NCBI RefSeq assembly: GCF_001545155.1
Contig: NZ_CP014226.1
Span: 2,296,807 to 2,308,376, forward strand
Length of the DNA stretch: 11,570 nucleotides
Direction: 5' to 3'
Source of the DNA: Halomonas chromatireducens
Lineage (GTDB): Bacteria > Pseudomonadota > Gammaproteobacteria > Pseudomonadales > Halomonadaceae
The translations under genes and the position numbers were made by a program. The notes under the pieces are model-generated. The model saw only the letters and a list, made by a program, of their open reading frames with translations. It searched no databases and was not told the origin of the DNA. Of the stretch, positions 10,765 through 11,570 are shown piece after piece (position 1 is the stretch's first letter; each line of letters starts with the position of its first letter).

Positions 10765-11401
10765 ATGCCCCCTCAGCCTGCCCGAGCCTGCCAGCAGTTT
10801 GACATCATCGGCGATGTTCATGGACACGCCAGCCTTTTGGAAGCCCTTTTAGCGAAGCTGGGCTATCAGCAGCAGCGCGGTGCATGGCGACACCCAAGCC
10901 GCGAGGCAATTTTTGTTGGCGACCTCATCGACAAGGGGCCAGACCCAGCCCGTGCGCTGATGCTAGTGAGAGCGATGGTAGAGAATGGCAGCGCCCGTAT
11001 GGTCGTAGGCAACCATGAGCTCAACTGGGTCAATGATGCCTTCCTTGAGCAGAATGACCCGCAAGCGTTTGTGGCGGCCACGCGGCTCCATCATGACCGG
11101 ATGCGACTGATGGAAGGGTTTATCGATGTAGGCACAGGACTTGCCGGCCTGATGGAGCACTTTGCGTGGTTGCGCCTGCAGCCGCTCTTCATCGATGAGC
11201 CGGGGCTTCGAGTGGTACATGGCAGCTGGGATGACGAGGCAATTGCTTGCCTGAAGGCTCAGCACATCACTTGCCTGGACGACCACGGCATGCGCCACTA
11301 CCGGGAGACTTATTCGAAAGGCTATCTGGCCATCGACCGTGTGGTCGCCGGCTGCGAGCATGACTTTTTCGATCAACCTGCGCCGAACGGATTCCGCTCG
11401 C
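10765..11401 (+). CDS. ApaH/PrpE-like metallophosphoesterase, 3'-truncated
   Basis: A calcineurin-like phosphoesterase related to the ApaH/PrpE diadenosine tetraphosphatase and Ser/Thr phosphatase group. Bimetal-site motifs are in the expected order: GDVHGH (Asp17, His19), [10 protein letters not shown] (Asp53, Asp56), and VVGNHE (Asn83, His84, Glu85). A later VVHGSWD block supplies a downstream metal-binding His. The start has AGGAG 6 nt upstream. About 212 codons are recognisable, to around PAPNGFRS. The C-terminal segment normally following in this family (ending in a Trp-rich RVRWW-like stretch) is missing. The same frame stays open to the window end, but from about 11402 it is only the antisense of an rpoB fragment, so a conceptual protein there would be chimeric. 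Likely substrates are dinucleoside polyphosphates, RNA caps or phosphoproteins; the sequence does not decide among them. Confidence 0.82.
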
Positions 11402-11405
11402 GCCG
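11395..11405. other. Junction between phosphoesterase gene and rpoB fragment
   Basis: Recognisable phosphoesterase coding (plus strand) ends and recognisable rpoB coding (minus strand) begins within a few bases of 11402. There is no intergenic spacer, terminator or insertion-sequence end. The two genes point at each other and both are cut. This marks a recombination point or an assembly join. Confidence 0.75.
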
Positions 11406-11570
11406 GCATGCATGGTGTGGTCGCCGTCCACAATGCTCTTGTACATCTTGGTGCGACCTTCCACGTCGTCGGATTTCCCCGTCAGCATCTCCTGCAGGGT
11501 GTAGGCGGCACCGTAGGCTTCCAGCGCCCAGACCTCCATCTCCCCGAAGCGCTGGCCACCGAACTGCGCC
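11402..11570 (-). CDS. rpoB: RNA polymerase beta subunit, near-C-terminal fragment
   Basis: About 56 codons of RpoB enter from the right edge; the first full codon begins at 11569. The product reads [20 protein letters not shown], then continues [16 protein letters not shown] and [16 protein letters not shown], the highly conserved clamp-proximal end of bacterial beta subunits. After HAG the normal ending (MPESFNVL...EIRSLGI..., about 25-30 residues) is replaced by unrelated codons read from the antisense of the phosphoesterase gene, to a stop at 11267. No rpoC follows. One residue is unusual: Gly (GGG) in LTGKSDD, where Val (GTG) is common. An intact rpoB is essential, so this is a partial copy, a break in an assembly, or a sequence chimera. 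Confidence 0.88.

Follow-up and report, generated by a model that had tools for sequence, protein, structure and literature searches.

A fragment of rpoB joined head-on to a truncated phosphoesterase gene in Halomonas chromatireducens is very probably a product of genome assembly

At the right end of a stretch of Halomonas chromatireducens DNA (11,570 bases, called in its entirety the window), a piece of rpoB meets, head-on, a phosphoesterase gene that has lost its 3' end. We regard it as nearly certain that assembly produced this join, an artefact of an ordinary kind; very probably the arrangement is not biology. A gap is present at the anomaly, like anomalies are found at other gaps of the same genome, and the sequencing method was able to produce such joins. 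An earlier note on this DNA had left a choice between a real duplication or inversion and two wrongly joined contigs: the second is borne out by an N beside the fragment, by tails at all four of the other Ns searched genome-wide, by an intact rpoB-rpoC pair elsewhere and by the published method (PMC4796137), whereas the first finds no support.

Results and Discussion

Features of the window

The features on which the argument rests are listed here by window position; L002 is a locus that runs past the end of the window.

6567..6685, no strand: stretch of 119 bases with the sdaA tail and a terminator hairpin; a second copy (118/119) directly follows the N, at L002 8379-8497
6616..8274, minus strand: frame of a NERD/UvrD-type helicase, its last 23 residues read from the 119-base stretch and replacing the conserved end EYVG[AV]SRA
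6686..11402, no strand: gene block of 4.7 kb (NERD-type helicase, ADP-ribosylglycohydrolase, PcfJ-like protein, phosphoesterase), each end of which truncates a gene
10765..11406, plus strand: metallophosphoesterase gene, its frame matching relatives up to NGFRSRR, with the last 95 codons seen in the relative P0001 not found in the assembly
11402..11408, no strand: GCCGGCA, common to both sides of the join; together with GAA(C)GGATTCCG from the preceding 17 bases it forms an imperfect pseudo-overlap of ~24 bases with rpoB
11402..11570, minus strand: rpoB piece of 169 bases from the region coding for domain 7, differing from the genome's intact rpoB at 1 base; interpreted as a gap-filling tail

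A gap-filled genome with leftover single Ns

The genome consists of one contig of 3,973,651 bases, in which the window occupies positions 2,296,807-2,308,376. That length is the one printed for H. chromatireducens AGD 8-3 (CP014226), a genome that is called a draft in the title and accession paragraph of its paper and complete in the abstract (PMC4796137). Paired Illumina reads of 150 bases were merged with PEAR and assembled with SPAdes into 247 contigs, which were ordered with CONTIGuator on Halomonas elongata, the gaps then being filled with GapCloser (PMC4796137). The genome would on this account be a pseudo-chromosome, that is, short-read contigs ordered on the genome of a relative and afterwards gap-filled. 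In 20 spread-out stretches of 20 kb each, together a 400-kb sample of this genome, we found 11 ambiguous runs, and every one of them (11/11) is exactly one N. By extrapolation, roughly a hundred such leftover single Ns would be scattered genome-wide through the gap-filled pseudo-chromosome, and they call for a warning, as chimeric ends at such joins can yield false gene fragments, duplications and antisense overlaps.

The rpoB fragment ends at a gap

On the minus strand, from 11570 to about 11402, the window had been read as RpoB, and it is indeed copied from the rpoB of this genome: from 11402 on, the sole mismatch lies at window position 11478 (LTGKS vs LTVKS in the intact gene), the longest alignment of the fragment region comprises 177 identical bases out of 182, and the fragment matches the Pfam family Rpb2 domain 7 (E 3.7e-20). 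The fragment ends abruptly at 11402, as the earlier note observed, but its other side is cut too, since a single N (L002 8378) follows it directly, and the window stops at 11570 because the next base is that N. Past the N comes the 119-base repeat and then sdaA on the minus strand, with the sdaA 3' end inside the repeat. The expectation that rpoC should follow rpoB thus fails at this place, where the 3' end of sdaA comes next, and is satisfied elsewhere in the genome, where an intact rpoB (an open frame of 1365 aa) precedes a frame of 1424 aa with the sequence NADFDGD, which we take to be the RpoC motif. The proposed search for a complete rpoB-rpoC pair accordingly succeeded, although it does not discriminate, the pair being expected under an artefact as well.

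The same observations bear on another possibility, namely that end-joining at GCCGGCA placed a genuine, partial rpoB duplication within the phosphoesterase gene and thereby inactivated it. Both sides of the join have a short sequence in common, and a cell could tolerate such an event because an intact rpoB lies elsewhere; against this, the fragment runs into an assembly gap and is of read length, like other pieces beside Ns. Contiguous sequence on both sides of the fragment, looked for as a mark of a real duplication, was not found, one side being the N. We consider this duplication hardly credible and reject it in view of the N right after the fragment, the read-length piece and the similar copies at other Ns.

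A truncated phosphoesterase gene and a pseudo-overlap at the join

On the plus strand, the reading of a phosphoesterase without its C-terminus proved sound. The frame agrees with P0001 (a relative of 330 aa, 95% identical over the query) as far as NGFRSRR, at window position 11406, after which P0001 continues with QRVCWWPS, 95 further residues in total, and the window frame departs. A search of the rest of the genome for the lost end brought up just two paralogues, of 40% identity. Of 275 family genomes, 10 have relatives of P0001 at E <= 1e-50; the genome under study is one of these ten and the sole member of its genus among them. In plasmids 45 records match, all below 60% identity. Scans that find close relatives only confirmed no relative of the phosphoesterase or of the PcfJ-like protein in genome_contigs, and none of P0001 in viral_contigs.

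At the join, where the earlier note pointed out a short GC-rich string, GCCGGCA (11402-11408) is common to both sources, and the phosphoesterase end and rpoB also have GAA(C)GGATTCCG in common within the preceding 17 bases. As a control, the 25 bases before each GCCGGC site of the 400-kb sample (both strands) were compared with the phosphoesterase end, and 12 of 1316 sites score as high, so that the pseudo-overlap is a modest one.

These features can be accommodated by one sequence of events. The contig with the phosphoesterase gene would have stopped inside that gene, and a read-length piece of rpoB would have been added to the open contig end, perhaps via the imperfect overlap of ~24 bases (GAACGGATTCCG...GCCGGCA), which could make a gap-filling program extend the contig with rpoB reads. 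The gap would have stayed open and been recorded as one N, and the next contig would start with the end of sdaA. We infer that GapCloser added the tail, rather than that a chimeric read had entered the contig; the mismatches in the rpoB copy and in the copy of the sdaA terminator past the N have the appearance of read errors. The antisense overlap and the hybrid reading frames, which the earlier note thought unusual if real, would exist because of the assembly artefact.

Copies of other loci beside other Ns

Four of the 11 N sites were searched against the whole genome, using 401 bases centred on the N. All four carry copies of other loci, 68-207 bases long, that end at the N or at most 13 bases off: copies of 158 and 68 bases in L082 (the former reaching 13 bases past the N), of 195 and 147 bases in L094, of 143 bases in L088 (reaching 3 bases past the N), and of 207 and 157 bases in L085. 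Weaker matches accompany these, three at one N site and one at another, and at a third there are many to a short repeat beside the N. Among six source loci fetched outside L085, five have a stop-to-stop frame of 241-420 residues covering the copy; at the remaining one (L107) the copy is itself bounded by an N, and either copy could be the original.

At a fifth N, in L089, an inverted self-copy of 134 bases (L089 4345-4478) starts directly after the single N, giving a chimeric-looking contig end. The other six N sites were compared with the 400-kb sample only; there they show no copy at the N, and five of the six have no second copy at all, while the remaining one (L083, 2119) has just an inverted match of 34 bases, which does not lie at the N. 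Counted in the sample alone, 2 of the 11 Ns (L085 10464 and L089) coincide with a copy edge; none of 500 random points does, and 5 of those points have a second copy at all (>=60 bases, 95%).

Contigs break at true repeats, and some of the copies next to Ns could be of that kind. The rpoB piece fits the class of tails that line unclosed gaps. As in mis-filled gap artefacts, a sequence of read length, unrelated to its surroundings, sits where a contig ends beside an unclosed gap; the piece differs from them in nothing essential, except that here the added piece comes from an essential gene. The fragment is conspicuous because its source gene is essential.

As a separate observation, the 157 bases after the single N in L085 (10465-10621) are identical to L085 18080-18236, 7.6 kb off, apparently a gene start; other joins of this genome may therefore carry false gene fragments too.

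A second abnormal join at the left edge of the 4.7-kb block

The earlier note had overlooked a second abnormal join, at the left edge of the gene block (window 6685/6686). There the helicase loses the end EYVG[AV]SRA that is kept in all nine aligned homologues (9/9). Matches to the helicase at E <= 1e-150 were obtained in 8 genomes besides its own, among 275 family genomes; in all eight the match reaches query residue 545-547, and here it stops at 534. A search of the genome with the full relative P0122 returned a single match, the window's own, ending at residue 534 of 550, a result that says little because the lost end, at ~20 residues, would by itself escape such a search. Tested for a pseudo-overlap of the kind seen on the right, the left join showed none, 13 of 119 controls being as good. 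No N stands at 6685/6686, and the left join is therefore closed sequence in the assembly, a point against reading it as an artefact.

The flanks are most simply read as two contig ends with a true overlap of 119 bases, between which the block was set; all 4.7 kb of it are probably misplaced. The doubt that is left concerns mainly the true location of this block.

Relatives bear directly on the flanks. In G005, G009 and G006 the flanks overlap by the sdaA-tail stretch (119-120 bases), present as a single copy, and the block is absent; G008 and G024 likewise have adjacent flanks, with shorter alignments. The block is therefore missing between the flanks in all five relatives fetched. These facts would also suit a block that truly integrated next to sdaA and duplicated 119 bases of its target, for example as an element that uses the 3' end of sdaA for integration; artefact would then be confined to the right end and its rpoB tail. 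Such an account agrees with the preferred one on the rpoB piece and differs from it on the block only. It was considered because 119 bases of the sdaA tail stand as direct repeats at both ends of the block (118 bases identical, single in the three relatives just named), as is the case around integrative elements with direct repeats at a gene's 3' end; the left join without an N and the resemblance of the block to a gene group of other Halomonadaceae speak for it as well.

Several observations weigh on the other side. The left join cuts the helicase ahead of its conserved end, as the homologues and the eight other genomes make plain, and intact edges, looked for as a mark of an integrative element, were not found, the helicase and the phosphoesterase at the edges of the block both being cut, in conserved regions; a gap, moreover, occupies one end. 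Pfam revealed no integrase among the block's four genes, although the missing right end could hold one. Repeats like those of the sdaA tail would also be given by two overlapping contig ends, and copies beside Ns recur in this genome. We therefore keep the insertion as a minor rival and judge it unlikely; slightly more doubtful still is the specific version in which a real mobile gene block sits at the sdaA 3' end with a 119-base target copy and has lost only its right end in the gap. Base composition decides nothing, G+C being alike in the block (60.2%) and in its left flank (60.8%).

When the four block proteins were submitted to PADLOC, with P0001 in place of the cut phosphoesterase, matches were returned for the helicase only, the best being RTasNERD-Hel (E 5.1e-30).

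Neighbourhoods of sdaA and of the block genes in relatives

Among 24 relative loci (L027-L050, flanks up to 1.5 kb), livG adjoins sdaA in 14 and does not in the remaining 10, one of which (L037) is a shorter locus where the contig ends; these ten weigh against the preferred reading. The LysR protein beside sdaA has its best named relatives in Halomonas sp. DQ26W and Billgrantia endophytica.

The genes of the block form a recurrent neighbourhood in Halomonadaceae, seen at window 6686-11402 and at L070 (G245), L071, L072, L073 and L068. In one relative the helicase and the phosphoesterase both have a longest contig of 82,694 bases, which suggests that the two lie together there. Across six fetched Halomonadaceae phosphoesterase loci, an ADP-ribosylglycohydrolase is found near the phosphoesterase in five, a PcfJ-like gene in three and a NERD-type helicase in two.
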